Assembly (NCBI GenBank): GCA_018241665.1
Contig: JAFEDK010000049.1
Span: 8,251-54,692, forward strand
Origin: Pseudomonadota bacterium
GTDB lineage: Bacteria > Pseudomonadota > Gammaproteobacteria > Burkholderiales > Rhodocyclaceae
DNA length: 46,442 nt
Direction of reading: 5' to 3'
This document shows positions 8,680 to 32,219 of the stretch, one piece after another (the first letter of the stretch is position 1; each line of letters opens with the position of its first letter). A program made the translations under genes and the position numbers. The notes beneath the pieces are model-generated. The model worked only from the letters and a program-made list of their open reading frames with translations. It did no database searches and was not told the origin of the DNA.

Positions 8680-9516
8680 TCAGCGGACCGGCGGCTGCGG
8701 TGCCGCCAGGCTTTCGGTGAGGCGGTCGAGGACCATCGCCAGCAACACCACCGACAGGCCACTGGCGAAGCCCTGGCCCATGTCCAGGCGCTGGATGCCG
8801 GACAGCACCTCGCCGCCGAGGCCGCCGCCGCCGACCATCGAGGCGACGATGACCATCGACAAGGCCATCATGATGGTCTGGTTCACCCCCGCCATGATGG
8901 ACGGCAGCGCGTAGGGCAGGCGGATCTGCACGAGCAGTTGCCAGGGCGTCGCGCCGAGGGTCGAGCCGGCTTCCAGCACGTCCTTGTCCACGTCGCGGAT
9001 GCCCATCGTGGTCATGCGCAGCACCGGCGGCACGGCGAAGATCACCGTCGCCAGCACGGCCGGCACCACGCCGAGGCCGAACAACATCACCGCCGGGATC
9101 AGGTACACGAAGGCCGGCATGGTCTGCATGAAATCCAGCAGCGGCCGCAGCGCACGCGCCAGGCCGGCGCGGGAGCCGGCCAGCACGCCCACCGGCACGC
9201 CGACCAGCAGGCTCAGCAGCGTGGCGGTGAGCACCTGGGCGAGAGTCGTGCGCATCTGCTCGCCGAAGCCCAGCCCTTCCACCACGGCCAGCGCCGTCAC
9301 CACGAACAGCGCCAGCCGCCAGCCCCGCCGCCACAGCGCGAAGGCCCCGAGCGCGGTGGGCAGCCCCCACCACGGCCCGGCCTGCAGAACCGCCTGCAGG
9401 CCGTCGGCCAGCGCACCGATCCCGTTCCCCAGCGCTGCCAGCGCGGAGGAATCGGCCGTCAGCACAGCGAGGGCGTCGTTGGCCCAGCGGGCCAGCGGGA
9501 TGAGGGCTTCGCTCAT
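8680..9516 (-). CDS. choW: Choline ABC transporter permease
   Basis: 278 residues, a ProW/OpuAB-type inner-membrane permease. Hydrophobic helices run from about residue 55 onwards. The cytoplasmic EAA coupling loop reads DVLEAGSTLGATPWQLLVQIRLP (about 187-209). The N-terminal extension (LARWANDALAVL) is typical of ChoW proteins. The partner ATPase ChoV is not encoded anywhere in the cluster, whereas choX-choW-choV usually lie together. A TonB-dependent receptor gene ends 26 bp upstream. The transporter may borrow an ATPase encoded elsewhere (inference). Confidence 0.92.
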   Translation of the reverse strand: MSEALIPLARWANDALAVLTADSSALAALGNGIGALADGLQAVLQAGPWWGLPTALGAFALWRRGWRLALFVVTALAVVEGLGFGEQMRTTLAQVLTATLLSLLVGVPVGVLAGSRAGLARALRPLLDFMQTMPAFVYLIPAVMLFGLGVVPAVLATVIFAVPPVLRMTTMGIRDVDKDVLEAGSTLGATPWQLLVQIRLPYALPSIMAGVNQTIMMALSMVIVASMVGGGGLGGEVLSGIQRLDMGQGFASGLSVVLLAMVLDRLTESLAAPQPPVR

Positions 9517-9542
9517 GACGGCTTACGGGTGGCCGGCGGCGC

Positions 9543-11783
9543 TCAGAAGCGCGCCCCGACGGTGGCGAAGACGGTGCGCGGCGCACCCGGCAGCAGGGTC
9601 TGGTAGGTGCCGGCGGCGTCGCTGGTGACGAAGCCGTTGGTGCCGATGGAGGCCACGTACTGCTTGTCGAACAGGTTGTTGACGCCGGCCTGCACGCGGA
9701 TCTCGTCGAAGGCGGCGACGCGCTTGAAACGGTGGCCGATACTCAGGTCCCACACGCTGTAGGCGCTCACCGAGGCGTCGTTGAGATAGCTGTAATAGCG
9801 CTTGTCGAGGTAATTCACGCCGATGCGGCCGAAGGTGGCGCCGTTGTCGTAGCCGAGTTGGGATTTGGCGATGAGCTTCGGCGAATCGACCACCTGCTTG
9901 CCGGACACTGCCACCAGGCTGCCATTATCGTAGAAGTCGTCCTTGTACTTGGAGTCGTTGTAGCTGAGGCTGTTGAACCACTGCAGGTTGCGCAGCGGCG
10001 ACCACACCAGCCCGGCCTCGATGCCGTTGGTGCTGACCTTGCCGACGTTGCCGAGCACCGACGGGTTGCCGGCGATGGCCGCGCCCTGCTGGATCGCCAG
10101 CAGGCGGTTCTTGAACTCCACGTGGTAGGCGGTCAGCGAGGTCTCGATGCCGTCGCCGCGGTGGCGCCAGCCGGCCTCCAGCGTCGTCGAGGTCTCCGGT
10201 TTGAGGCTGTCCTTGATCGCGTCGAAGCCGGCCTGGGTGGTGGCGAAGGGCGAATCCTCCAGCGGCGACACCTTGTAGGCGCGGATGTTGCGCGACAGGC
10301 CGGCGAAGACCTCGTTGCGGGCGTCGATCACGTAGTTGGCGCCGAGCTGCGGCAGGAAGCCCTTGGAGGCCTTGATGCTGCCCGACAGGGGGTTGCCGGC
10401 CGTGGTGCTCACCGAGGTCTCGGTGCTCGGTGACTTGAAGCCGACGTTCACCTTCAGCTTGTCGCTGAGCTGGATGCTGTCCTGCAGGTGGAACTGCAGC
10501 GTGCGGGTCTTGAACTCGTAGGCCCAGCGGGTAGCGAACAGGTCGCTGGCCGACGGCGTGCGGTACAGGTCGCTGGGGCCGCCGTCCTGGGCGTAGAAAC
10601 GCATCGCGTTCTTGAAGTTGTTGTCCTCATACCAGAAGCCGCCCTTGAGGCTGTGGCTGCCGGCGTTGACGCTGAGGGTGGACAGGATGCCGTTGCGGCT
10701 GATGCCGTAGCTCACCGTGCGCAGGGACACCGGCGTGCCGCCCGGCGAGGCCCGGTAGGGGGTGAACCACAACGTCGTGCCGTCGTCGTCGTGGTGGTAG
10801 GCGGTGGTCTTGAGGCTCACGTTGTCGCTCAGCTGGCTGTCCAGCGTCACGCCGGCGAGCCAGTCGGTGCGCAGGCCGGCGCCGGCATAGTAGGCGTCGT
10901 CGATGCTCGTCTCGCCACGGCTCCAGTTGCCCTGGGCCGACTGCAGCGCGGCGTTCCAGTTGGGGTAGTAGTTGTCCCAGCGGTAGCCGAGGCGCTGGAT
11001 CAGGGCCTTGGACAGATCCTGGTAATCCACTTCCTGGCGATCGGAGTAATTGACGAAGGCGCTCAGGCGGTTGGCGCCGAAGTCCGACACCAGCTTGGCG
11101 TTCACCTGCCGCTGGCGCTGGTCGCCGCTGCCCTTCCACTTCTCGGAGCCCTGGTCGGTGACGCTCAGGGCCAGGCGCGTGCCGGGCGCCAGCTCGCCAC
11201 TGTCGAAGCGCGCAAACGTGCGGCGGGCGGAGTTCTGGCCGACGGTCTGTTCCAGCGTGACACGCCGGGTGACGGCCGGGTCCAGCGAATAGAACTGCAC
11301 GGTACCGCCGAGGTTGCTGTTGGACGCCGTATCGAGGGCGCCGGCGCCCTGGGACAGCACCACGCGGCCGATGTTCTCCGACGAGATGGCGCGGCTGATG
11401 TGCAGGCCGTTGGAGTTACGGTAGCTCATGTCGCCGAGGGGCACGTCGTCCAGCGTGAAGCCCATCTGGTTCTGGTTGAAGCCGCGCACGGTGAGCTTGG
11501 TGGACCACTCGTAGGCGCCGTAGGTGTCGGCGGACTGGAAGTTCACGCCGGGCAGCTTGTCGAGCAGCTTCAGCGGGCTGGTGCCGGGCACCGCGGCGGT
11601 CACGTCGGCGCGGCCGAGTTCCTGGATCTGGCGGGTCTGGCGGCGCGTGAACACGGTCACCGCGTCGAGCTTGGTGTCGTCGGTGGCAACCGGCTGGGCG
11701 GCCTCCTGGGCCAGCGCGGCGGTGCCGTGGAGGACCGGGATCAGGGCCAGGACGAGGGGTAGTTTGCGAAAGCGGCGGGGCAT
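9543..11783 (-). CDS. TonB-dependent outer-membrane receptor in the choline-sulfate locus
   Basis: 746 residues. The start at 11783 is chosen because GGAG stands 6 bp before this ATG. The signal peptide runs to about residue 26 (LVLALIPVLHGTAALA). A TonB-box-like LDAVTVF precedes the plug domain (about 45-170: PLKLLDKLPGVNFQS, TLDDVPLGDM, IGRVVLSQGAGALD). A long 22-stranded-barrel-like region ends in Phe (TVFATVGARF), the usual outer-membrane assembly signature. It lies between betC (28 bp) and choW (26 bp) on one strand, implying cotranscription and a role in taking a choline ester or related substrate across the outer membrane. Receptors of this kind usually import siderophores, so the substrate is inferred from context only. 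Confidence 0.93.
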   Translation of the reverse strand: MPRRFRKLPLVLALIPVLHGTAALAQEAAQPVATDDTKLDAVTVFTRRQTRQIQELGRADVTAAVPGTSPLKLLDKLPGVNFQSADTYGAYEWSTKLTVRGFNQNQMGFTLDDVPLGDMSYRNSNGLHISRAISSENIGRVVLSQGAGALDTASNSNLGGTVQFYSLDPAVTRRVTLEQTVGQNSARRTFARFDSGELAPGTRLALSVTDQGSEKWKGSGDQRQRQVNAKLVSDFGANRLSAFVNYSDRQEVDYQDLSKALIQRLGYRWDNYYPNWNAALQSAQGNWSRGETSIDDAYYAGAGLRTDWLAGVTLDSQLSDNVSLKTTAYHHDDDGTTLWFTPYRASPGGTPVSLRTVSYGISRNGILSTLSVNAGSHSLKGGFWYEDNNFKNAMRFYAQDGGPSDLYRTPSASDLFATRWAYEFKTRTLQFHLQDSIQLSDKLKVNVGFKSPSTETSVSTTAGNPLSGSIKASKGFLPQLGANYVIDARNEVFAGLSRNIRAYKVSPLEDSPFATTQAGFDAIKDSLKPETSTTLEAGWRHRGDGIETSLTAYHVEFKNRLLAIQQGAAIAGNPSVLGNVGKVSTNGIEAGLVWSPLRNLQWFNSLSYNDSKYKDDFYDNGSLVAVSGKQVVDSPKLIAKSQLGYDNGATFGRIGVNYLDKRYYSYLNDASVSAYSVWDLSIGHRFKRVAAFDEIRVQAGVNNLFDKQYVASIGTNGFVTSDAAGTYQTLLPGAPRTVFATVGARF

Positions 11784-21020: not shown

Positions 21021-21935
21021 TCAGAACCCGTAGCTGATCAACCCCACCAGCTTGCTCACCTGGTTCACCCCGAAGCGGTTGTCGCCGCCGATGATGCCCT
21101 GCAGCGTCCACGTCAGGCCGGTGCTGCCGATGGGCTGGGACAGGCCGAGGACGAGGTGACGGAAGCCGTCGCTGATCGGGCCCTTGCCGGCGAAGCAGCC
21201 ATTGACCACGAAGGCGGTGCCCGGCGCGCAGGATCCACCCGTGGCGGCGTCGCCGGTGCCCAGGTACTTGCCCTCCCGCGCGTAGGTGTACCAGCCGAGG
21301 CTGGCCGTGAAGGTCAGCTCGGCCGGCAGCGGGCGGGTGTAGTTGAGCGTCCAGTAGGTGTCGCCCCGGTTGCCCCACACGGTGTCGTTGAGCAGGGTCT
21401 GCGCGTTCAGCGCGTATTCCTGCCAGGCCAGGCCGAGCTTGGTCTCGGTGGCGTTGGCGTGGCGGCCGTTGAGGTAGTAGTAGGCAGTCAGGCCCAGCGT
21501 GTAGGAGACGTCGCCGAGCTTGCCGGTGTAGCCGCCGTAGAAGTCGTTCTCCACCGACTTGCCGTCCTGGAAGTCGCTGACCGCCACATTGCCGGTGGCC
21601 GCGTACTGGTCGTAGGAGCGCCCCAGCTGCTTGTACGAATAGTGGATCGCCGATGCCCAGTAGCCCAGGTAGAAACCGCTTTCATGGGTGAAATCGACGC
21701 CCCACTGGGGTGTGAAGCGGTCCGACTCAGGGGCGTCCGCGCCCTGGTTGCCGAGGCCGGGCTTGGCGTTGCCGTAGGTGGTCGTCGCGCCGCGCAGGTA
21801 GTAGCGGCTGGCGAGATCGACATGCCCGGTGAGGGTGTAGGGCGGTGCGGCTTCATCGGCCGCCAGGGCGGGGCTGGCGGAAACGGCGAGGACGGACAGG
21901 GCGCACAGCGACCCTGCGATGGCTTTATCAAGCAT
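21021..21935 (-). CDS. TorF-family putative porin, divergent from the guanidine operon
   Basis: 304 residues. The signal peptide MLDKAIAGSLCALSVLAVSA is cut near 25 (SPALA-ADEA). The mature part begins PYTLTGHVDLASRYYLRGATTTYGN, the usual start of TorF/gcw_chp outer-membrane proteins, then continues with alternating strands (WGVDFTHESGFYLGYWAS, DVSYTLGLTAYYYLNG, TYWTLNYTRPL) and ends in Phe (LVGLISYGF). It is divergent from the guanidine operon with a 571-bp shared control region and has its own sigma-54-like promoter. That arrangement suggests an outer-membrane route for guanidine or a related nitrogen source (inference; TorF substrates are not established). Confidence 0.88.
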   Translation of the reverse strand: MLDKAIAGSLCALSVLAVSASPALAADEAAPPYTLTGHVDLASRYYLRGATTTYGNAKPGLGNQGADAPESDRFTPQWGVDFTHESGFYLGYWASAIHYSYKQLGRSYDQYAATGNVAVSDFQDGKSVENDFYGGYTGKLGDVSYTLGLTAYYYLNGRHANATETKLGLAWQEYALNAQTLLNDTVWGNRGDTYWTLNYTRPLPAELTFTASLGWYTYAREGKYLGTGDAATGGSCAPGTAFVVNGCFAGKGPISDGFRHLVLGLSQPIGSTGLTWTLQGIIGGDNRFGVNQVSKLVGLISYGF

Positions 21936-21984
21936 CACGAGAGAAGACTCCGATTGAGGTTCCGGATATGCGCGCCGTCCTCCT

Positions 21985-22001
21985 AGCAGAAAGCGGACCA
22001 A
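21985..22001 (-). promoter_or_regulatory. Sigma-54 (-24/-12) promoter for the TorF-like porin
   Basis: On the leftward strand the sequence reads TTGGTCCGCTTTCTGCT. The invariant GG and GC are exactly 10 bases apart, and it matches TTGGCACG-N4-TTGCT at all but three informative positions. Transcription would start near 21975, leaving a leader of about 40 nt before the ATG at 21935. Confidence 0.6.
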
Positions 22002-22092
22002 CCGGCACCGGGGCGGACGCGGCGGCGGCTTTGCATATACATGGCGACGCAATCCACCCCACCCAATCCGGGCACAGCACGCCCACCGGCGA

Positions 22093-22109
22093 TGCACCCG
22101 CGGCGTGCC
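22093..22109. promoter_or_regulatory. NtrC-like enhancer site 1
   Basis: T-GCACC-CGCGG-CGTGC-C matches the NtrC dyad GCACC-N5-GGTGC with one mismatch. Its centre is 31 bp (three helical turns) from the second site, the spacing seen for cooperative NtrC dimers at glnA. It lies between the two opposed sigma-54 promoters. Confidence 0.5.
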
Positions 22110-22123
22110 TGCCCATTTCCGGC

Positions 22124-22140
22124 GGCACCACGGCGGTGCA
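22124..22140. promoter_or_regulatory. NtrC-like enhancer site 2
   Basis: G-GCACC-ACGGC-GGTGC-A is a perfect match to the NtrC dyad GCACC-N5-GGTGC. It is about 130 bp upstream of the rightward -12 element and about 140 bp from the leftward one, both normal enhancer distances, so one pair of sites could serve both promoters. Confidence 0.6.
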
Positions 22141-22251
22141 TCCACCTTTTCGGCATGCGCGGCGCGAGACGCCGGACTCCACCCGCATCCCGCGCGACAA
22201 CACCCTGGCAGGCCAGTGTCCACAAGGCTTTCACGGGATTGTCACGACAAC

Positions 22252-22267
22252 TGGCACCGCTATTGCT
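22252..22267 (+). promoter_or_regulatory. Sigma-54 (-24/-12) promoter of the guanidine operon
   Basis: TGGCAC-CGCTA-TTGCT matches the consensus TGGCAC-N5-TTGCW, with GG and GC exactly 10 bases apart. The predicted start is near 22278, so the transcript would begin about 45 nt before the riboswitch aptamer. This places the operon under general nitrogen control (NtrC with RpoN). Confidence 0.8.
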
Positions 22268-22324
22268 AAACGATCGGCGAGAGGGAGCGAATCGCGCTGC
22301 ATCGCGTTCGCTTCATCGAAGGGT

Positions 22325-22451
22325 GGCTAGGGTTCCGGTCCCGTTTCGGATATGCGCACATATCAGGGGATGTCTGGTCCGAGAGCTGCCGGCTACGCCA
22401 GGCCGAGCAGGCATGTCGTGGCTCCACGGAGGGATAAAAGCCCGGGAGGAA
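22325..22451 (+). promoter_or_regulatory. Guanidine-I (ykkC) riboswitch
   Basis: The conserved landmarks of the ykkC class occur in order: GGCTAGGGTTCCG (22325-22337), then GTCTGGTCCGAGAG (22372-22385), then a variable stem, and CACGGAGGGATAAAAGCCCG with GGGAGGA following (about 22425-22450). These are the near-invariant bases that form the guanidinium pocket. The downstream genes (ABC transporter, DUF1989 pair, carboxylase, allophanate hydrolase) are a regular guanidine-I regulon. Boundaries are approximate because the outer P1 stem was judged by eye. Confidence 0.93.
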
Positions 22452-22483
22452 CGCTTTGGATGAAGCGCCCTCTCGCCCGTTTT
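22443..22483 (+). terminator. Riboswitch-controlled intrinsic terminator (expression platform)
   Basis: The 5' arm CGGG-AGG-(AA)-CGCTT (22443-22456) and 3' arm AAGCG-(C)-CCT-(CTCG)-CCCG (22463-22479) close a TGGATG loop and are followed by TTTT (22480-22483). The CGGGAGG half is also the 3' end of the guanidine-I aptamer, so the two structures exclude each other: ligand binding should free the RNA from termination. The first gene starts 24 bp later. Confidence 0.7.
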
Positions 22484-22506: not shown

Positions 22507-23559
22507 ATGTACCAGACCGACACCCGCCGCGTTCGTCCGACCGTCCTCCGCGACACGCGCGCCACCGCCACTTCCTCCCTCCTCAAGCGCCTCAAGACCA
22601 CCCTCGCCGTGCTCGGCCTGGGCAGCGCACTGCTCGCCGCGCCGGCGCCGGCCCTCGCCGAGGTCAAGGTCGGCGTGTCCGACTGGCCGGGCTGGGTGGC
22701 CTGGTACGTGGCCGAGCAGAAGGGCTTCTTCAAGAAATACAAGGCCGACGTGAAGCTGGTGTGGTTCGCCAACTACACCGACTCCATCTCCGCACTGTCC
22801 TCCGGCCAGCTCGACGCCAACTGCCAGACCTGGTCCGACACCATGGGCCCGCTGGCCAAGGGCGTTCCGGTGAAGGCGGTGCTCGTCAATGACAACTCGG
22901 CCGGCAACGACGCGCTGATGGTCAGCGACAAGATCAAGGGCTTCGCCGACCTGAAGGGCAAGCGCATCGCCCTCGAAGAGTTCAGCATCTCCCACTTCGT
23001 GCTTGCCACCGCGCTGGCCAAGAACGGCCTGACCCAGAAGGACGTGAAGGTGGTGAACCTGTCCGCCGGCGACGCCGCAGCGGCCTTCCTGGCCGGCCGC
23101 GTGGACGCCGCAGTGGTGTGGAACCCGTGGGTCTCGCAGATCGAGAAGAGCGGCAAGGGCAAGCCGCTGTTCACGTCGAAGGACATGCCGGGCCTGATCC
23201 CCGACCTGCTGGTGGCCCAGGACAAGGCCATCAAGACCAAGCACAAGGACCTGGTCGGCATGATCCGGGCCTGGTTCGACACCGAGAAGTTCATCCGCGA
23301 CAACCCGGACGAAGCGGCGAAGATCATGTCCAAGGTAGTCGGCATGAAGGCCGAGGACTACAAGGTCTTCCTGCCCGGCACGCGCTTCTTCGACGCGGCG
23401 GCCAACCAGACTGCGCTGACGCCGACCGACGCCAAATCCCTGCAGGCCGTCGCACCGACCATCTCGGCCTTCCTGCTCGACAAGAAGCTGATCGACGGCA
23501 AGCCCGACGCCGCCAAGGGCATCGACGCCAGCCTGCTCGCCGAAGCCCTCGGCAAGTGA
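22507..23559 (+). CDS. Guanidine-operon ABC transporter substrate-binding protein
   Basis: 350 residues. ATG 22507 is set by AGGAG 7 bp upstream. The signal peptide is long, with a basic n-region (about 1-28) and a hydrophobic core (LAVLGLGSALLAAPAPALA, cleavage near 51). The mature part has the NrtA/SsuA/TauA-like fold: VKVGVSDWPGWVAWYVAEQKGFFKKYKADVKL at the start, DSISALSSGQLDANCQTW in the pocket, and DAAAAFLAGRVDAAVVWNPW. It is the type annotated as putative urea-carboxylase-associated binding protein. Placement behind a guanidine-I riboswitch makes guanidine the likelier ligand. First gene of the operon, 7 bp before the permease. Confidence 0.92.
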   Translation: MYQTDTRRVRPTVLRDTRATATSSLLKRLKTTLAVLGLGSALLAAPAPALAEVKVGVSDWPGWVAWYVAEQKGFFKKYKADVKLVWFANYTDSISALSSGQLDANCQTWSDTMGPLAKGVPVKAVLVNDNSAGNDALMVSDKIKGFADLKGKRIALEEFSISHFVLATALAKNGLTQKDVKVVNLSAGDAAAAFLAGRVDAAVVWNPWVSQIEKSGKGKPLFTSKDMPGLIPDLLVAQDKAIKTKHKDLVGMIRAWFDTEKFIRDNPDEAAKIMSKVVGMKAEDYKVFLPGTRFFDAAANQTALTPTDAKSLQAVAPTISAFLLDKKLIDGKPDAAKGIDASLLAEALGK

Positions 23560-23566
23560 GACGGCC

Positions 23567-24391
23567 ATGAGCGCAAGCAAGCGAGCCGGCGGGGGCGGCA
23601 GCCCCCTGTGGCAGATCCGCTCCGCCATCGACCCGCGCCAGTACTGGCTGCTGGCCCTGTTCGGGCTGGTCGCGCCGCTCGTCGCGTGGCTGGTGGCGAG
23701 CCACCTGGACGGCACCGACAAGGTCTTCCTGCCCGGCCCGGCCGACGTGCTGGCCCGCATCTGGAGCTGGGCCACGGATGACGACCTGGCCGCCGACGTG
23801 GCGATCAGCACCTGGCGCGTGGTGGCCGGCTGGGCCCTGTCGGCCGCCATCGCGCTGCCGCTGGGCCTCTTCATCGGCAGCTACCGGGCCGTGCAGGCGC
23901 TGCTGGAGCCCCTCACCGACTTCGTCCGCTACATGCCCGCGGTGGCCTTCATCCCGCTGGTCATGCTGTGGGTCGGCATCGAGGAGGGCTCCAAGGTGGC
24001 GATCATCTTCATCGGCACCTTCTTCCAGATGGTGCTGATGGTCGCCGAAGACGTGCGCCGGGTGCCACTGGCGCAGATCGAGGCAGCCCAGACGATGGGC
24101 GCCACGCGCAGCGAGATCCTCGAGAAGGTCATCGTCCCGTCGGCCAAGCCGGCCCTGCTCGACACCCTGCGGGTGACCATGGGCTGGGCATGGACCTACC
24201 TGGTGGTGGCCGAGCTGGTGGCCTCCAACTCCGGCCTCGGCTACGCGGTGCTCAAGGCCCAGCGCTTCCTGCAGACCGACAAGATCTTCGCCGGCATCCT
24301 GCTGATCGGCCTGATCGGCCTCCTCATCGACCAGGGCTTCCGCCTGGTCCATCGCAAGGCCTTCCCCTACCTCGCCGGGAGACACCGATGA
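23567..24391 (+). CDS. Guanidine-operon ABC transporter permease
   Basis: 274 residues, SsuC/TauC-type permease with about six membrane helices: YWLLALFGLVAPLVAWLVAS, TWRVVAGWALSAAIALPLGLFIG, YMPAVAFIPLVMLWVGI, VAIIFIGTFFQMVLMVAEDV, TMGWAWTYLVVAELVA and FAGILLIGLIGLLIDQGF. The EAA loop EAAQTMGATRSEILEKVIVP contacts the ATPase. Its stop overlaps the ATPase start by 4 bp (ATGA), so subunits are translationally coupled. It moves the ligand of the upstream binding protein across the inner membrane. Confidence 0.93.
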   Translation: MSASKRAGGGGSPLWQIRSAIDPRQYWLLALFGLVAPLVAWLVASHLDGTDKVFLPGPADVLARIWSWATDDDLAADVAISTWRVVAGWALSAAIALPLGLFIGSYRAVQALLEPLTDFVRYMPAVAFIPLVMLWVGIEEGSKVAIIFIGTFFQMVLMVAEDVRRVPLAQIEAAQTMGATRSEILEKVIVPSAKPALLDTLRVTMGWAWTYLVVAELVASNSGLGYAVLKAQRFLQTDKIFAGILLIGLIGLLIDQGFRLVHRKAFPYLAGRHR

Positions 24392-25245
24392 CCGCCAGCA
24401 TCGACATCCGCGACGCCTTCAAGACCTTCGGCCACGGCCCCCAGGCCATCCACGCGCTGGAGCACGCCAACCTGACGATCCGCCCCAACGAGTTCGTCAC
24501 CTTCGTCGGCGCGTCCGGCTGCGGCAAATCCACGCTGCTGCGCATGATCGGCGGGCTGGAGAGCCTCAGCCGCGGCAGCATCGCAGTGAACGGCCAGCCC
24601 ATCGCCGGCCCCGGCGTGGACCGGGCCATGGTGTTCCAGCACTACAGCCTCTACCCGTGGCTGACGGTCACCCAGAACATCAAGTTCTGCCGCCAGCTCA
24701 AGGCCCACACCCGCGACCGGACCTCGGCCGACGTGGAGAAGGCCGCCGGCCGCGCCGATGCGCTGATCCGCCTGATGGGCCTCAGCCACGTCGCCGATGC
24801 CTACCCCAGCCAGCTGTCGGGCGGCATGCAGCAGCGCGTGGCGATCGCCCGCGCGCTGATGAGCCGGCCGCCGATCCTGCTGATGGACGAGCCCTTCGGC
24901 GCGCTGGACGCCCAGACCCGCGAGGTGATGCACGACCTCATCCGCCACGTGCACCGCATGGAAGGCAGCACCATCGTGTTCGTCACCCATGACGTGGAAG
25001 AGGCCATCTACCTGGGCCAGCGCATCGTGCTGATGGCGCCCCGCCCCGGCCGCATCGACACCCTCTACGACGTGCCCCTGCCCGCCGAGCGGCACCAGGA
25101 CATGAAGCTCGCCCCCGAGTTTCTCGCCTTGAAGCGCGAGATCCTGGAACGCATCCGCGAGACCTCCGGCATGAAAACCGACCTCGAGCAGCTCGCCCGC
25201 CTCAACGCCGACGTCGGCGCCGACGCTGCCCTCACCACGGACTGA
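24388..25245 (+). CDS. Guanidine-operon ABC transporter ATP-binding protein
   Basis: 285 residues with all nucleotide-binding motifs: Walker A GASGCGKST (about 36-44), Q-loop VFQHYSLYPWLTV, signature LSGGMQQRVAIARAL, Walker B ILLMDEPFGALDAQTR and the switch His in VFVTHDVEEA. It is of the SsuB/TauB/NrtD group. The C-terminal ~60 residues (from LAPEFLALKREILERI) form a helical extension. ATG 24388 overlaps the permease stop, and the DUF1989 gene follows after 5 bp. Confidence 0.95.
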   Translation: MTASIDIRDAFKTFGHGPQAIHALEHANLTIRPNEFVTFVGASGCGKSTLLRMIGGLESLSRGSIAVNGQPIAGPGVDRAMVFQHYSLYPWLTVTQNIKFCRQLKAHTRDRTSADVEKAAGRADALIRLMGLSHVADAYPSQLSGGMQQRVAIARALMSRPPILLMDEPFGALDAQTREVMHDLIRHVHRMEGSTIVFVTHDVEEAIYLGQRIVLMAPRPGRIDTLYDVPLPAERHQDMKLAPEFLALKREILERIRETSGMKTDLEQLARLNADVGADAALTTD

Positions 25246-25250
25246 AGCCC

Positions 25251-26039
25251 ATGAACGCCCTGCTCACCCCCACCGACGCCGTGGACGTGGACACCCGCTG
25301 GCAACAACTCGCCGCCGACCTGCCGGAAGACCGCATTCTGTTCTCCGACGTGGTCCCCGGCGGCTGCCACTGGTCGTGGACACTGCCCCGCGGCACCACG
25401 CTGCGCCTGGTTGCCCAGGCTGCCGGCGCCAACCTGTCGATGGTGCTCTACAACGCCCGCCAGCCGCTGGAGCGCTACAACATGCCCGACTCCCTCAAGG
25501 CCCAGCACACCGCCCACTACGGCCGCGGCCACGTGCTGATGAGCGACATGGGCTGCGCGATGGCCTCCATCACCGCCGACAGCCTGGGCTGGCACGACCC
25601 CCTCGGCCTGCTGCTCGACGCCCCGCGCATGCACGAGAAGTACGGCCAGCACCCCTACCAGCAGTACCGCAACGGCATGTACCGCGCCGGCCGCGACGGC
25701 CTGCTGATCGAGATCGGCAAATACGGCCTGCGCCGCCGCGACCTGGTGGCGCCGGTGAACTTCTTCAGCAAGGTCAGCGTGGACGAGGAAGGCCGCTTCC
25801 ACTTCCAGCCCAATCACGCGCCGGCCGGCGCGATGGTGGAGGTGCGCCTCGACATGGACGTGATCGTCGCCGTGTCCGCCGCGCCGCACCCCCTCGACCC
25901 GCGCCCGGACTACGCGCCGGCGCCGGTGGGCATCGTCGCCTGGCGCTCCGGCCCGGCGGCGGCGGACGACGTGTGCCGCCAGTTCCGCCCGGAAGGCGCC
26001 CGCGCCCTGCACAACACCGACCTGCACTACCTGGCCTGA
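25251..26039 (+). CDS. Carboxyguanidine deiminase subunit (urea carboxylase-associated protein 2, DUF1989)
   Basis: 262 residues, DUF1989 family, longer of the two adjacent paralogues. Segments typical of the family are RILFSDVVPGGCHWSWTLPRGTTLRLV, LYNARQPLERYNMPDSLKAQ, GHVLMSDMGCAMASITADSLGWHDPLGG-like text at 90-125, and LVAPVNFFSKVSVDEEGRF. In guanidine-I-regulated operons these paired proteins form the CgiAB enzyme that deiminates carboxyguanidine to allophanate, linking the carboxylase and allophanate hydrolase; they were long annotated only as urea-carboxylase-associated. Which paralogue is CgiA and which CgiB was not decided, so no symbol is given. Confidence 0.9.
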   Translation: MNALLTPTDAVDVDTRWQQLAADLPEDRILFSDVVPGGCHWSWTLPRGTTLRLVAQAAGANLSMVLYNARQPLERYNMPDSLKAQHTAHYGRGHVLMSDMGCAMASITADSLGWHDPLGLLLDAPRMHEKYGQHPYQQYRNGMYRAGRDGLLIEIGKYGLRRRDLVAPVNFFSKVSVDEEGRFHFQPNHAPAGAMVEVRLDMDVIVAVSAAPHPLDPRPDYAPAPVGIVAWRSGPAAADDVCRQFRPEGARALHNTDLHYLA

Positions 26040-26049
26040 GGAGACCGCC

Positions 26050-26703
26050 ATGACCGCCACCGCCATCCGCCTCCGGGAAAGCGCCCTCGACCCGGCCCAG
26101 GCCGTCACCGACGTGGTGCTGCCTGCCGGCGAACCCTGGCTGCACGAGGTGAAGCAGGGCCAGACCCTGCGCATCGTCGACCTGCACGGCAACCAGGCCG
26201 CCGACGTGATCTTCTACAACCGCCACGACACCGACGAGCACTACAGCGCCACCCAGACCCTGCTGCAGCAGGGCGGCATCTACCTCACCACCGGCTCGGT
26301 GCTGATGAGCAACGAAGACCGCCCGATGCTGAGCATCGTCGCCGACACCTGCGGCCGCCACGACACGCTGGGCGGCGCCTGCGCCGCCGAGAGCAACACC
26401 GTGCGCTACGCGCTGCACAAGAAGTACATGCACAGCTGCCGGGACAACTACCTGCTGGCCATCCAGCACTCCGACTCGGGCCTCACCAAGGCCGACCTGG
26501 TGCCCAACGTCAATTTCTTCATGAACGTGCCGGTCACCGCCGACGGCGGCCTCAAGTTCGACGACGGCGTATCCGGCCCCGGCAAGTACGTCGAGCTGCG
26601 CGCCGAGATGGACCTGTGGGTGCTGGTCTCCAACTGCCCGCAGCTCAACAACCCCTGCAACGCCTACAACCCCACGCCCGTGCAGTTCCTGATCTGGAAC
26701 TGA
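26050..26703 (+). CDS. Carboxyguanidine deiminase subunit (urea carboxylase-associated protein 1, DUF1989)
   Basis: 217 residues, second DUF1989 paralogue, 10 bp after the first, with GAGGAG 6 bp before the ATG. Motifs parallel its neighbour: LHGNQAADVIFYNRHDTDEHYSA, GSVLMSNEDRPMLSIVADTCGRHDTLGGAC, LVPNVNFFMNVPVTADGG and a C-terminal VLVSNCPQLNNPCNAYNPTPV. The clustered Cys/His residues (DTCGRHD, GACA, NCPQLNNPCN) are candidates for metal binding. It is expected to act as a heteromer with the preceding protein in converting carboxyguanidine to allophanate and ammonia. Confidence 0.91.
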   Translation: MTATAIRLRESALDPAQAVTDVVLPAGEPWLHEVKQGQTLRIVDLHGNQAADVIFYNRHDTDEHYSATQTLLQQGGIYLTTGSVLMSNEDRPMLSIVADTCGRHDTLGGACAAESNTVRYALHKKYMHSCRDNYLLAIQHSDSGLTKADLVPNVNFFMNVPVTADGGLKFDDGVSGPGKYVELRAEMDLWVLVSNCPQLNNPCNAYNPTPVQFLIWN

Positions 26704-26806
26704 TCCGCAGCAGCACGCTTCCGGCTCCAGCCGGCCCCCGGGACGACCCGGGCGGACAGGATGACCGGGCGGGACGACCCGCCCCCTCGCTCCGAGAGCC
26801 TCCACC

Positions 26807-29800
26807 ATGTTCAGCAAAGTCCTCATCGCCAACCGGGGCGCCATCGCCTGCCGGGTGATCCGCACGCTCAAGAAGCTCGGCATCGCCTCGGTGGCCGTGC
26901 ATTCCGAAGCCGACGCCAACTCCCTGCACGTCAGCCTCGCCGACGAGGCGGTGTGCATCGGCCCGGCCCCCGCCGCCGAGAGCTACCTCAAGGCCGACAC
27001 CATCCTCGCCGCGGCCCGCGCCAGCGGCGCCCAGGCCATCCACCCGGGCTACGGCTTCCTGTCCGAGAACCCCGACTTCGCCGACGCCTGCGAGGCCGCC
27101 GGCATCGCCTTCATCGGCCCGACCCGCGCCCAGATGCTGGCCTTCGGCCTCAAGCACACCGCCCGCAAGCTGGCCGAGCAGGCCGGCGTGCCGCTGCTGC
27201 CGGGCAGCGGCCTGCTGTCCGGCGTCGACGAGGCGCGCCGCGAGGCCGCCCGCATCGGCTACCCGGTGATGCTCAAGAGCACCGCCGGCGGCGGCGGCAT
27301 CGGCATGCGCCTGATCGGCGGCGAGGCTGAGCTGGACGAGGCCTACGCGTCGGTGGACCGGCTGGCCCGCGCCAACTTCAAGGAAGCCGGCATCTACCTG
27401 GAAAAGTACGTCACCGCCGCCCGCCACATCGAGGTGCAGGTCTTCGGCGATGGCCGCGGCCGCGTGCTGGCCCTGGGCGAGCGGGACTGCTCGGTGCAGC
27501 GCCGCAACCAGAAGGTCATCGAGGAAACCCCGGCGCCGGGCCTGTCCGCCGCCCAGCGCGGCGGGCTGGCCGCCACCGCGGTGCGCCTGATGGAATCCAT
27601 CGCCTACCGCTCGGCCGGCACCGTGGAGTTCGTGATGGACGCCGACAGCGGCGCCTTCTACTTCCTGGAGGTGAACACCCGCTTGCAGGTGGAACACGGC
27701 GTCACCGAGGAAGTGACCGGCACCGACCTGGTGGAATGGATGGTGCTGCTCGCCTCCGGCGACCTGACCCTGCCCGCCACCGCGCCACAGCCGCAGGGCG
27801 CGTCCATCCAGGTGCGCCTGTACGCCGAAGACCCGGCCAAGAACTTCCAGCCGTCGTCCGGCCTGCTCACCGAGGTGCGCTTTCCGCCCGGCGTGCGCGT
27901 CGAAACCGCCGTCGCCACCGGCTCGGAAGTGCCGCCCTATTACGACCCGATGGTCGCCAAGATCATCGTCCATGCGGACAGCCGGGAAGCCGCCACCGAC
28001 AAGCTGATCGCCGCGCTGGACGCCACCCGCGTGTACGGCATCGAGACCAACCGCGCCTACCTGCGCCAGATCCTCGACGGCGAGGTGTTCCGCGCCGGCC
28101 GCCAGACCACCCGCTACCTCAATACCTTCGACTACCGCCCCGCCACCTTCGACGTGCTGGAGCCCGGCGTGCAGACCTCGGTGCAGGACTGGCCCGGCCG
28201 CGTCGGCTACTGGGACGTGGGCGTGCCGCCATCCGGCCCGATGGACGACCTGGCCCTGCGCGCCGCCAACCGCCTGGTTGGCAACCCGGAAGGCGCCGCC
28301 GGCCTGGAATGCACGATGAGCGGCCCGACCCTGCGCTTCAACTGCGACACCGTGATCGCCCTCACCGGCGCGCCCACCGCCGCCACGCTGGACGGCGCGC
28401 CGCTGGCCTGGTGGCAGGCCCACGCGGTGAAGGCCGGCGCCACGCTGAAGGTCGGCGCCGTCACCGACGCCGGCTGCCGCAGCTACCTGGCGATCGCCGG
28501 CGGCATCGACGTGCCCGACTACCTGGGCAGCCGGTCCACCTTCACCCTCGGCCAGTTCGGCGGCCACGCCGGGCGCTGCCTGCGCCTCGGCGACGTGCTG
28601 GCGATCCAGCCCACCACCGCCCTGCCCGCGCCCATCGAGCTGCAGCCGCCCGTCTACGGCCACCACTGGGAAGTGGCGGTGCTGTACGGCCCCCACGGCG
28701 CGCCGGACTTCTTCACCGATCCGGACATCGCCGGCTTCTTCGCCACCGACTGGGAGATCCACTACAACTCCAGCCGCACCGGCGTACGCCTGATCGGGCC
28801 CAAGCCCCAGTGGGCGCGGACCGATGGCGGCGAGGCCGGCCTGCACCCGTCCAACATCCACGACAACGCCTACGCCATCGGCGCCATCGACTTCACCGGC
28901 GACATGCCGGTGATCCTCGGCCCGGACGGCCCCAGCCTGGGCGGCTTCGTGTGCCCGGCCGTGGTGATCCAGGCCGACCTGTGGAAACTCGGCCAGCTGC
29001 GCCCCGGCGACACCCTGCGCTTCGTGCCGGTCAGCGCAGCCACTGCGGCACGGCGCCTGGCCGCTGCCGACGCGGCGCTGGCCCATGCCGACGGCCCCCT
29101 CGCGCTGCCGGTGATCGCCGAGCCGGACACCGTCACCACGCCGGTGCTGGCCGAGCTGCCGGCCGCCGGCGAGCGCCCCCGCGTGGTCTATCGCCAGGCC
29201 GGCGACGCCTACCTGCTGGTCGAATACGGCCCGCTGGTGCTCGACCTGGAGCTGCGTTTCCGCGTGCATGCGCTGATGGACTGGCTGAAGGCCCATCCCC
29301 AGCCGGGCATCATCGACCTGACCCCCGGCATCCGTTCCCTGCAGCTGCACTTCGACGCCCGCCGCACCGACCGCACTGCGCTGCTCGCCGCGCTGCAGGC
29401 CGCCGAGGACGCGCTGCCCGCCATCGACGACATGGAAGTGCCGAGCCGCACGGTGTACCTGCCGCTGTCGTGGGACGACCCGGCGACCAAGCTGGCCATC
29501 GACAAGTACATGCAGTCGGTGCGGAAGGACGCCCCGTGGTGCCCGTCCAACATCGAGTTCATCCGTCGCATCAACGGGCTGGATTCCATCGACGACGTGT
29601 ATCGCACCGTCTTTGACGCCAGCTACCTGGTGCTGGGCCTCGGCGACGTGTACCTCGGCGCGCCGGTGGCCACGCCGATGGACCCGCGCCACCGCCTCGT
29701 CACCACCAAGTACAACCCGGCCCGCACCTGGACACCGGAGAACGCGGTGGGCATCGGCGGGGCCTACATGTGCGTGTACGGCATGGAAGGCCCCGGCGGC

Positions 29801-30412
29801 TACCAGTTCGTCGGCCGCACGGTGCAGATGTGGAACCGCTGGAACCACGGCGCCCGCGGCACCGAGCAGTTCGACAAACCCTGGCTGCTGCGCTTCTTCG
29901 ACCAGGTGCGCTTCGTGCCGGTGGGCGAGGAAGAACTGCTGCAGCTGCGCAAGGACTTCGCCGCCGGCCGCGCCCGCCTGCGCATCGAAGACGGCGTGTT
30001 CCGCCTGGCCGACTACCGGCGCTTCCTGGCCGACAACGCCGCCCCCATCGGCGCCTTCAAGGCCCGCCAGCAGGCCGCCTTCGAGGCCGAGCGGGAACGC
30101 TGGAAGGCCGCCGGCCAGGCCGAGTACATCAGCGAGGCCGACATCGCCGCAGCGGCCGCCGATTCCGAGCTGGACCTGCCGGAAGGCGCCCAGCTGGTGG
30201 CCAGCTACGTGCCCGGCAACATCTGGAAGCTGCTCGTCGAAGCCGGCCAGCACGTCAAGGCCGGCGACCCGCTGGCGGTCGTCGAATCCATGAAGATGGA
30301 ATTCACCGTGACCGCCCCCGCCGACGGCGAAGTGCTGCAACTGCTGTGCCGCGAAGCCAGCCCCGTCGCCGCCGGCCAGGATCTGCTGATCCTGCGCACC
30401 GCCACCCACTGA
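26807..30412 (+). CDS. Biotin-dependent guanidine/urea carboxylase
   Basis: 1201 residues, full-length urea-carboxylase architecture. Biotin carboxylase 1-450: [23 protein letters not shown]-grasp [42 protein letters not shown]. The AHS2/KipA-like part of the carboxyltransferase starts near 448 ([28 protein letters not shown]) and the AHS1/KipI-like part near 785 ([17 protein letters not shown]). The BCCP domain ends the protein with biotinyl Lys1163 in VVESMKMEF. In operons with a guanidine-I riboswitch and a DUF1989 pair this enzyme carboxylates guanidine rather than urea. The text QMWNRW puts Asn1010 at what is probably the urea/guanidine-discriminating position; that alignment was made by eye. 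Confidence 0.94.
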
Positions 30413-30428
30413 TTCCGGAGAGATGACC

Positions 30429-32219
30429 ATGCTGCCCAACAGCCTCGACCTCGCCACACTGGCCGCCGCCTACCGCGCCGGCCTCAAGCCCAGCGCCCTG
30501 TTCGCCCACCTCCACGCGCAGGCCGCCGCCGACACCCACCACGCCTGGATCAGCCTGCTGCCGGAAGCCGAGCTGCTGGCCCGCGCCCGCGCGCTGGACG
30601 CCCAGGACCCGGCCAGCCTGCCGCTATATGGCGTGCCCTTCGCGGTGAAGGACAACATCGACCTGGCCGGCCTGCCGACCACCGCCGGCTGCCCGGACTT
30701 CGCCTACGCACCACACGCCGACGCGGCGGTGGTGGCGCGCCTGATCGCCGCCGGCGCGATCCCCCTCGGCAAGACCAACCTGGACCAGTTCGCCACCGGC
30801 CTCAACGGCACCCGCAGCCCCTACGGTGCCTGCCGCAACGCCTTCCAGCCGGACTACATCTCCGGCGGCTCCAGCTCCGGCTCGGCGGTCGCCGTGGCGG
30901 CCGGCCAGGTGAGCTTTGCGCTGGGCACCGACACCGCCGGCTCCGGCCGCGTGCCGGCCGCCTTCAACAACCTGGTCGGCCTCAAGCCGAGCTGCGGCCT
31001 GCTGTCGTCCACCGGCGTCGTGCCGGCCTGCCGCAGCCTCGACACCGTCTCGATCTTCGCCCTCACCGCCGCCGACACCGCCACGCTGTTCGGCATCGCC
31101 CGCGGCTTCGACGCAGCCGACGCCTACAGCCGTCCGGCGGAAGGCCACGGGCGGCGCTTCCCGGCCGGCCAGCCCTTCCGCTTTGGCGTGCCACGCGCCG
31201 ACCAGCTGGCCTTCTTCGGCGACGCCCACAACGCCGACCTGTTCGCCGCCGCTGCGGCCCGCCTGCAAGGCCTCGGCGGCACGCCGGTGGAACTGGACTT
31301 CGAGCCCTTCCTGGAAACCGCCCGCCTGCTCTACGGCGGCCCGTGGGTCGCCGAGCGCTACCACGCGATCCAGGACTTCATCGAGCGCCAGCCGGAATCC
31401 GTCTTCCCGGTGACGCGGGCGATCACCCTCAGCGGCGCCAAACCCAGCGCCGTGGACGCCTTCGACGCCCACTACCGGCTGCGCACCCTCAAGCGCCGCT
31501 GCGACGCCGCCTGGCAAGAGGTGGACCTGATCCTCACCCCCACCGCCGGCTACCACCCGACCATCGCCGCCGTGGAGAGCGAGCCGATCCGCATCAACAC
31601 GGAGCTGGGCCACTACACCAACTTCATGAACCTGCTGGACTACGCCGCGGTCGCCGTGCCCGCCGCCTTCCGGCCCGACGACCTGCCCTTCGGCGTGACC
31701 CTCTTCGCCCCGGCCCACCAGGACCTGCCGCTGCTCGAACTGGCCGCCCGCTGGCAGGCCGACACCGGCCTGCCCCTCGGGGCCACCGGCCAGCCGCTGC
31801 CCGACCAGACTTTCCCAGCCACGCCCGGCGCCGACGGCATGGTGCAGGTCGCCGTCTGCGGCGCCCACCTGTCCGGCCTGCCCCTCAACGGGCAACTCAC
31901 CCAGCGCGGCGGCCGCCTGCTGCGCAGCGTGCGCTCCGCGCCGGAATACCGCTTCTACGCGCTGGCCGGCGGCCCGCCCCAGCGCCCCGGCATGGTCCGC
32001 GTGGCGGAAGGCGGCGCCCGCATCGACATGGAAATCTGGGAACTCCCCGCCCACCACTTCGGCAGCTTCGTCGCCGCCATCCCCGCCCCGCTGGGCATCG
32101 GCAAGGTGAAACTGGAAGACGGCAGTCAGGTCTGCGGCTTCATCTGCGAAAGCGGCGGCCTGGCGGGGGCTGAGGACATCACCAAGTACGGCGGGTGGAG
32201 GGCGTGGCTGGGGCGCTAA
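30429..32219 (+). CDS. atzF: Allophanate hydrolase
   Basis: 596 residues, hydrolysing allophanate to ammonia and CO2. ATG 30429 is favoured because GGAG at 30417-30420 is 8 bp away; ATG 30423 is possible but too close. The N-terminal amidase-signature domain (about 1-430) has catalytic Lys74 in GVPFAVKDNIDL, the Ser148-150 cluster in ISGGSSSGS and the nucleophile Ser172 in LGTDTAGSGR. The C-terminal ~150 residues (from about 445) form the second domain found in full-length AtzF. Last gene of the operon; it ends 3 bp before a convergent dehydrogenase gene. Confidence 0.95.
   Translation: MLPNSLDLATLAAAYRAGLKPSALFAHLHAQAAADTHHAWISLLPEAELLARARALDAQDPASLPLYGVPFAVKDNIDLAGLPTTAGCPDFAYAPHADAAVVARLIAAGAIPLGKTNLDQFATGLNGTRSPYGACRNAFQPDYISGGSSSGSAVAVAAGQVSFALGTDTAGSGRVPAAFNNLVGLKPSCGLLSSTGVVPACRSLDTVSIFALTAADTATLFGIARGFDAADAYSRPAEGHGRRFPAGQPFRFGVPRADQLAFFGDAHNADLFAAAAARLQGLGGTPVELDFEPFLETARLLYGGPWVAERYHAIQDFIERQPESVFPVTRAITLSGAKPSAVDAFDAHYRLRTLKRRCDAAWQEVDLILTPTAGYHPTIAAVESEPIRINTELGHYTNFMNLLDYAAVAVPAAFRPDDLPFGVTLFAPAHQDLPLLELAARWQADTGLPLGATGQPLPDQTFPATPGADGMVQVAVCGAHLSGLPLNGQLTQRGGRLLRSVRSAPEYRFYALAGGPPQRPGMVRVAEGGARIDMEIWELPAHHFGSFVAAIPAPLGIGKVKLEDGSQVCGFICESGGLAGAEDITKYGGWRAWLGR

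Follow-up and report, generated by a model that had tools for sequence, protein, structure and literature searches.

The window analysed here, i.e., the whole stretch of 46,442 nucleotides from contig JAFEDK010000049.1 of a Zoogloea-type bacterium of the Rhodocyclaceae, contains an operon for the use of guanidine and, divergent from it, a gene for a porin of the TorF family. The gap between the two is the subject of this work. The operon comprises genes for an ABC transporter, the proteins UAAP1 and UAAP2, a urea-carboxylase-like enzyme and AtzF, together with guanidine riboswitches (Table 1). The UAAP1/UAAP2 pair (25251-26703) has reportedly been given the name carboxyguanidine deiminase, by Schneider in 2020. 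The gene content and the two riboswitches within the operon, together with guanidine as the substrate in the literature (PMC12186494), identify it as a predicted guanidine carboxylase route. The Guanidine-I riboswitch precedes the first gene of the operon, and a rightward promoter lies about 50 nt before it; a genome search gave no second Guanidine-I match elsewhere in the same genome. The genome encodes RpoN (222 bits) and, at 705.9 bits (cut-off 558.6), an ortholog of NtrC. The first-pass annotation of the window had placed two opposed sigma-54 promoters in the gap, with one pair of NtrC-type dyads between them serving both. Loci from other genomes are referred to below by L numbers.

Table 1. 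Features of the porin-operon gap and of the flanking genes, with positions in the window.
Feature	Position	Strand	Evidence
TorF-family porin (TIGR02001 / PF09694), guanidine-associated clade	21021-21935	-	64 bits, TIGR02001 cut-off 47.15
Weak predicted sigma-54 promoter of the divergent porin, TGGTCCGCTTTCTGCT	21985-22000	-	predicted +1 at about 21974; 3 mismatches; conserved in relatives
NtrC-type dyad 1	22093-22109	.	core 22094-22108, GCACC-CGCGG-cGTGC, one mismatch to GCACC-N5-GGTGC; 14/17 identical in L089
NtrC-type dyad 2	22124-22140	.	core 22125-22139, GCACC-ACGGC-GGTGC, exact; 17/17 in L085 and L086, 10/17 in L089
Predicted sigma-54 -24/-12 promoter of the guanidine operon, TGGCACCGCTATTGCT	22252-22267	+	predicted +1 at about 22278; motif scan and conservation in relatives
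Leader 5' arm at the predicted sigma-54 start, proposed antiterminator strand	22276-22289	+	computed complementarity with the terminator hairpin's 3' arm
Guanidine-I riboswitch aptamer (RF00442)	22316-22450	+	79.1 bits, gathering 63, full model coverage
Terminator-type hairpin, conserved 3' end of the aptamer and shared 3' arm	22443-22475	+	-17.0 kcal/mol; TTTT at 22480-22483
Shared 3' arm, can pair with the 5' arm or the aptamer end	22465-22477	+	pairing computation
ABC transporter, substrate-binding protein	22507-23559	+	
ABC transporter, permease	23567-24391	+	
ABC transporter, ATPase	24388-25245	+	named from its sequence, not from a family search
UAAP1	25251-26039	+	family search
UAAP2	26050-26703	+	family search
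Guanidine-II riboswitch, between UAAP2 and carboxylase	26735-26782	+	41.8 bits, gathering 32
Guanidine carboxylase, annotated 'urea carboxylase' (TIGR02712)	26807-30412	+	family search; UAAP1/UAAP2 and guanidine riboswitch context
Allophanate hydrolase AtzF	30423-32219	+	family search

The rightward element, TGGCACCGCTATTGCT, differs in one position from the sigma-54 consensus TGGCACGNNNNTTGCW and was the best of the 70 matches in the window. It is an exact TGGCAC-N5-TTGCW, with the GG and GC 10 bp apart, and the start was placed by counting the GC as -13/-12. The exact pattern occurs 21 times in the 5.4-Mb genome, this site among them, and sites with at most one mismatch number 185 as compared to 140 for the pattern read backwards, so that the pattern alone is a weak signal genome-wide. 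The element is also conserved in relatives, and the -24/-12 promoter proposed here in the first-pass annotation holds as a prediction. No match to a sigma-70-type consensus was found in the gap by a consensus scan.

Two sets of loci were scanned for a sigma-54 site before Guanidine-I. The first set consisted of 15 stretches from relatives and of 80 carboxylase loci, the best among at least 590. After the duplicates L100, L101 and L103 had been dropped, 93 loci remained, the window included, in which a regular expression found 57 riboswitches. Two of these, L173 and L178 from Acinetobacter, lay inside coding sequence and were taken out as false, leaving 55. Sites were accepted within 110 nt upstream of CTAGGG with the GG and GC intact. 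A site with at most two mismatches preceded 49 of the 55 carboxylase-linked riboswitches (49/57 before the removal), as compared to 0.8% of random 110-nt windows, and at most three mismatches gave 53/55 against 3.4% of such windows; the random windows were drawn from the same loci. Some of the 55 riboswitches belong to close relatives of the window, and the loci are not independent. Rfam was run on 17 of the 36 loci negative by the regular expression and recovered Guanidine-I in five; all four of these with upstream sequence had a site with at most two mismatches. The second set, largely but not provably independent of the first, came from Rfam genome searches, with Guanidine-I in 22/274 genomes of the class and 43/398 of the phylum. 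From about 85 distinct matches 59, mostly the best scoring and including our own, were scanned, and 48 had a site with at most two mismatches (47/58 without the own locus). Some loci count against the association: L095 has no site within 110 nt, L125 has one at 134 nt, and four more loci need three mismatches, while 11/59 of the second set lack a site at two mismatches. Guanidine-I riboswitches of the efflux type were not recognised among the loci fetched.

Some side observations were made during these scans. Guanidine-I was not found by Rfam in 12 of the 17 regex-negative carboxylase loci run, and eight of these 12 (L108, L109, L110, L116, L117, L118, L120 and L177), several of them Thiobacillus-type, have a single sigma-54 site each (one mismatch or none) that lies -7.1 to -7.4 kb away from the carboxylase, perhaps reflecting nitrogen control without Guanidine-I. 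Among the remaining four, L155 has such a site at -5.0 kb and three have none. Two divergent Guanidine-I riboswitches 0.3-0.5 kb apart, with a sigma-54-like site at each, were seen in L223/L237, L227/L238 and L240; in the first two of these genomes one riboswitch precedes a substrate-binding protein and the other an unidentified protein.

The pairing between the start of the predicted transcript and the end of the riboswitch was the stronger result of the analysis. In long leaders, the first approximately 12 nt of the predicted transcript are complementary to the segment directly 3' of the aptamer. The arms differ between clades and their partners differ with them, as in CGAGAGGG/CCCTCTCG, CGGGAAA/TTTCCCG and CGACAGGAG/CTCCTGTCG. 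The helix formed in this way and the terminator-type hairpin exclude each other, as the same 3' arm is used in both. When the leader and 100 nt upstream of it were searched without bias, the best ungapped helix began between -1 and +7 relative to the predicted start in 25/45 loci, compared to 6.6% of shuffles. The 45 loci were then grouped into 16 sequence clusters, and a 12-nt arm was paired with the partner of its own cluster and with those of the other clusters. Cognate minus non-cognate energy was -4.0 to -4.7 kcal/mol at offsets 0-3, with 0/5000 permutations as good, while it was -0.50 to +0.62 at eight offsets from -48 to -6 and -1.8 to +0.2 at +6 to +30. The second set, with 41 long-leader loci in 29 clusters and the own locus left out, gave -2.5 to -3.8 at offsets 0-6; at offset 1 the own partner was better in 24/29 clusters, again with 0/5000 permutations. 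Since this pairing covaries between clades and peaks at the predicted start, the promoter and the riboswitch appear to form a single device. The coincidence of the predicted start with the edge of an RNA element also supports the sigma-54 start independently.

Several results weaken this picture. Compared with plain shuffles of the arm, the helix is better by a moderate margin only (mean z -2.3), with 18/45 loci having at most 2/200 shuffles as good; the peak in the second set is broader, at offsets 1-6, and 13/41 of its duplexes do not reach -11 kcal/mol. Only 31/45 loci have a run of three or more T within 15 nt behind the 3' arm. Furthermore, the leader arm is absent where the predicted start coincides with the aptamer, as in Acidithiobacillus (L156 and L160), several Acinetobacter and Azospirillum. 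Short-leader loci thus lack a 5' arm, and the lock is not universal.

The 3' arm also pairs locally with the aptamer end, with at least three partners in the last 8 nt of the aptamer and the next 4, in 44/45 loci, and at least five of eight arm bases are paired in the local hairpin in 43/45. As both the leader 5' arm and the aptamer end pair with it, two strands compete for one 3' arm. In the window the local hairpin was not flagged by the consensus terminator scan. The leader arm is proposed to be an antiterminator. The start-to-terminator helix could instead belong to the terminator itself, acting as a long-range stem, or stabilise the finished leader, and its position before a T-run in 31/45 loci would suit such a role. 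However, the local hairpin takes the same arm in 44/45 loci, and the two short-leader Acidithiobacillus leaders have a plain local terminator only, which makes the leader arm look like a competitor. We therefore regard a terminator or stabiliser function as unlikely and keep the antiterminator as the preferred assignment.

In its aptamer the element is a Guanidine-I riboswitch (ykkC subtype 1, RF00442), with a full aptamer match and a terminator-type hairpin formed from the 3' end of the aptamer. It differs from the known class in the 5' terminal arm upstream of the aptamer, which competes for the terminator arm and is locked to the predicted sigma-54 start. A close parallel is the P0 helix of the PRPP riboswitch (ykkC 2b), where the 5' and 3' flanks of the aptamer pair as part of the expression platform. 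According to PMC6031431, the PRPP aptamer ends form P0, a helix which that paper describes as missing in the guanidine aptamer; PRPP riboswitches use terminator control (PMC5912903). Unlike in P0, the arm described here lies far upstream at the transcript start, is variable in sequence, and covaries. A pairing of promoter and riboswitch was not found in those portions of the open-licence literature that were searched.

NtrC binds the palindrome TGCACC-N5-GGTGCA, and in E. coli promoters of the glnAp2 type paired dyads about three helical turns apart lie upstream of the -24/-12 element, with rpoN and ntrC in the genome. The gap has the same arrangement, with two dyads 31 bp apart start to start upstream of the sigma-54 site, and so has the glnA promoter of the same genome, with a sigma-54 site and two dyads 30 bp apart. 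Different from the glnAp2 type, the transcript here runs into a riboswitch ahead of its first gene, and the dyads are flanked by two divergent promoters. Counted from the right predicted start, the centres of dyads 1 and 2 lie at about -177 and -146, and counted from the left one at about -127 and -158, respectively. Dyad 2 has the sole exact GCACC-N5-GGTGC core in the window. Dyads with at most two mismatches are common there (106 against 68 expected); in the whole genome, 27 sites have at most one mismatch to TGCACCN5GGTGCA as compared to 2 for a control pattern. Conservation in relatives lifts the set of elements above chance.

Dyads were surveyed within 300 bp upstream in 54 loci that have both a riboswitch and a sigma-54 site, with 19 shuffled palindromes as controls. 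At most one mismatch to GCACC-N5-GGTGC was found in 28/54 loci (0-3 for shuffled palindromes), an exact dyad in 8/54 (0), and pairs 28-34 bp apart in 9/54 (0). Six of the nine pairs come from the Zoogloea group (the window and L085-L089; the other three are L094, L102 and L129), and three of the eight exact dyads are from the window and its Zoogloea-group relatives, so these counts are not independent; the pair in L089 is a different one from that in the window. This weakens the case for NtrC, as does the finding that clear dyads were absent or weak in the Acinetobacter, Azospirillum and Silvimonas loci of the survey, which keep the sigma-54 site and where a different activator may therefore act.

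Another enhancer-binding protein, using the dyads or other sites, could thus drive real sigma-54 promoters; in the genome the ntrC model gave 20 matches with 230 bits or more, one alone being over the cut-off. On the other hand, the dyads fit the NtrC palindrome and are enriched near these promoters and genome-wide, the glnA pair has nearly equal spacing, an NtrC ortholog is present, and RNA-seq of a Burkholderia ntrC mutant points the same way. We consider a non-NtrC activator improbable. In the B. cenocepacia ntrC mutant, the 'urea carboxylase' I35_7286 is down by log2 6.0 (PMC5491218). The NtrC regulon of strain H111 includes, as I35_7283-7286, genes that share their names with those here (urea carboxylase, its ABC transporter and aminomethyltransferase), which in that paper are read as serving urea use. 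NtrC dependence of 'urea carboxylase' genes in Burkholderia is already in print, while the words 'guanidine', 'riboswitch' and 'ykkC' are absent from the text of PMC5491218. L240, from a different B. cenocepacia strain, combines Guanidine-I with a sigma-54 site and a dyad, and we infer that it is the same locus as I35_7283-7286. Predicted sigma-54 regulons include COG3665, in which 59% of 102 genes are named urea carboxylase (PMC12316311); 'guanidine' is absent from that text, and no link between guanidine and sigma-54 was found in the available parts of PMC7011215 and PMC3224663.

Taken together, we consider the following model of an operon with two inputs, nitrogen shortage and guanidine, to be likely. 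Under nitrogen shortage, active NtrC would bind the paired dyads and sigma-54 polymerase would fire at the rightward promoter. This step is proposed because the sites are conserved, rpoN and ntrC are in the genome, and NtrC dependence of the Burkholderia counterparts has been published; on these grounds the earlier placement of guanidine use under nitrogen control is supported. Nitrogen status is, however, one of two inputs, since a guanidine riboswitch stands between promoter and genes. The transcript would start at about 22278 and carry the Guanidine-I riboswitch. With guanidine bound, the 5' terminus would pair with the 3' arm, the terminator would fail and transcription continue, while without guanidine the terminator would form. 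The sigma-54 start would in this way fix the RNA end used by the riboswitch. Guanidine-II before the carboxylase, an element identified from the sequence, may be a third checkpoint, and the divergent porin would have a weaker sigma-54 promoter in the same gap. That guanidine use is generally under the control of nitrogen and guanidine among the loci appears well supported by their predicted sites. It was also observed that Guanidine-II stands directly before the carboxylase in L255, L256, L257, L096, L110, L155, L154, L241 and L242; two classes of guanidine riboswitch are therefore often present in one operon.

The leftward element, TGGTCCGCTTTCTGCT, is weak by sequence, and this counts against the divergent arrangement. 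It is 16 bp long and has three mismatches to TGGCACGNNNNTTGCW, with GG and GC intact. Matches with at most three mismatches number 70 in the window against 90 expected, and with GG/GC fixed they occur in 3.4% of random 110-nt windows, so the element alone is not above chance. Its GG and GC and the 65-nt distance to the ATG are kept in all four Zoogloea-group loci with a divergent porin (the window, L085, L086 and L089, all close relatives), and in L086 it has only one mismatch. Compared with L089, identity on the porin side is 38/39 in the leader from the predicted start, 7/10 up to the element and 14/16 in the element, followed by 57/90 beyond it. In the dyad region it is 14/17, 5/14 and 10/17 for dyad 1, the stretch between the dyads and dyad 2, respectively. 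On the operon side it is 56/111 after dyad 2, 13/16 in the right element, 3/10 up to the start and 44/48 in the guanidine leader from the predicted start. Judged from this pair of loci, each of the two predicted starts marks the onset of conservation.

Sigma-54 and NtrC could control the operon only, with the leftward element a chance match and the porin under another promoter, and the three mismatches of an element that alone is not above chance would agree with that. Against it speak the GG/GC and ATG spacing in 4/4 close relatives, the single mismatch in L086, the onset of conservation at the leftward predicted +1 and the gap's lack of any sigma-70-type match. In L258-L261, moreover, porins of this clade have a sigma-54 site upstream, and the one in L257 lies behind Guanidine-I. 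Control of the operon alone is in our view rather doubtful, and a leftward sigma-54 promoter likely exists.

Whether the dyads act on both sides is a separate matter. A single enhancer common to both promoters is plausible. The 31-bp dyad pair is also present in L087, L088 and L096, in which no TorF gene was found. In L089 both promoters are kept while dyad 2 is degraded (10/17). The description of the gap in the first-pass annotation has to be adjusted: the dyads have the stated spacing of 31 bp and one is exact, but the other has one mismatch; the leftward element, given as 21985-22001, has the right GG and GC and is conserved in relatives, but has 16 bp instead of 17 and is weak; and in the Zoogloea-group relatives with the divergent porin the GG/GC elements are kept, but dyad 2 not always.

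Two further features of the porin leader were noted. On the minus strand at 21949-21966 there is a weak terminator-like hairpin with a T-rich tail (0.3 expected by chance). The predicted 5' end of the porin mRNA, 21959-21973, is complementary in 14/15 positions to the variable loop of the Guanidine-I riboswitch, 22343-22357, and the two stretches are unchanged in L085, L086 and L089; this is possibly antisense cross-talk or chance.

The porin is 31% identical over 143 residues to the glnK-linked TorF of the same genome, and it was matched in 9/399 genomes of the order, our own included. Five of the seven other porin loci with usable flanks (L255, L256, L257, L259 and L260) adjoin a Guanidine-I riboswitch or carboxylase operon, and the porins of L258 and L261 do not; L254, a fragment at a contig end, was left out of this count. 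Riboswitches in L255-L261 were decided by Rfam; a ykkC regular expression with three mismatches gave false matches. In L257 the porin (9282-10394) has a sigma-54 site and a Guanidine-I riboswitch of its own immediately before it. In L259 and L260 the porin is divergent from a substrate-binding protein gene that follows Guanidine-I and a sigma-54 site, and has a sigma-54 site of its own with dyads that are weak at most; the L259 porin may lie about 12 kb from the L154 carboxylase, if both are on the same contig. Porins of this clade were also found among the carboxylase-selected loci, in L085, L086, L089 and L099 (divergent) as well as in Variovorax L148 and in L159, and in Cupriavidus basilensis one is behind atzF. 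The tie of the porin to guanidine use suggested by the first reading is thus supported by these neighbourhoods. From the genome context, the porin probably passes guanidine through the outer membrane.

The other TorF type precedes glnK, which is present in 21/30 fetched TorF loci. A sigma-54 site with at most two mismatches was found in 17/19 glnK-linked TorF loci with usable upstream sequence and in 0/9 without glnK. TorF-glnK operons (TIGR02001) are thus similar to the window in combining a porin of the family with predicted sigma-54 and NtrC-type sites, while the window porin forms a separate clade tied to guanidine genes. In the genus, torF-glnK promoters (L180-L192) often have two overlapping dyads 13 bp apart, start to start, and not the 31-bp pair.

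That all these elements are chance matches in GC-rich DNA is very improbable. Weak matches to both patterns are indeed frequent in the window and in the genome, but the random windows, shuffled palindromes, permutations and the second set all speak against chance, as they already do where the leader helix and the rightward promoter are concerned. A wider claim is evenly balanced in our judgement, namely that in most proteobacterial guanidine operons the sigma-54 start and Guanidine-I evolved as one device, with the initial dozen nucleotides, present only in RNA begun by sigma-54 polymerase, as the antiterminator strand, so that only transcripts made in nitrogen starvation could be switched by guanidine, and that the TorF-clade porin is the outer-membrane channel for guanidine.

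The results bear on the question of why bacteria carry guanidine riboswitches. The proteobacterial assimilation operons examined appear to be wired to sigma-54, often with NtrC-type sites, as well as to guanidine, and guanidine therefore looks like a scavenged nitrogen source. An uncharacterised porin family also gains a concrete candidate substrate. If the proposed lock is true, the choice of promoter would supply a working strand of the riboswitch.
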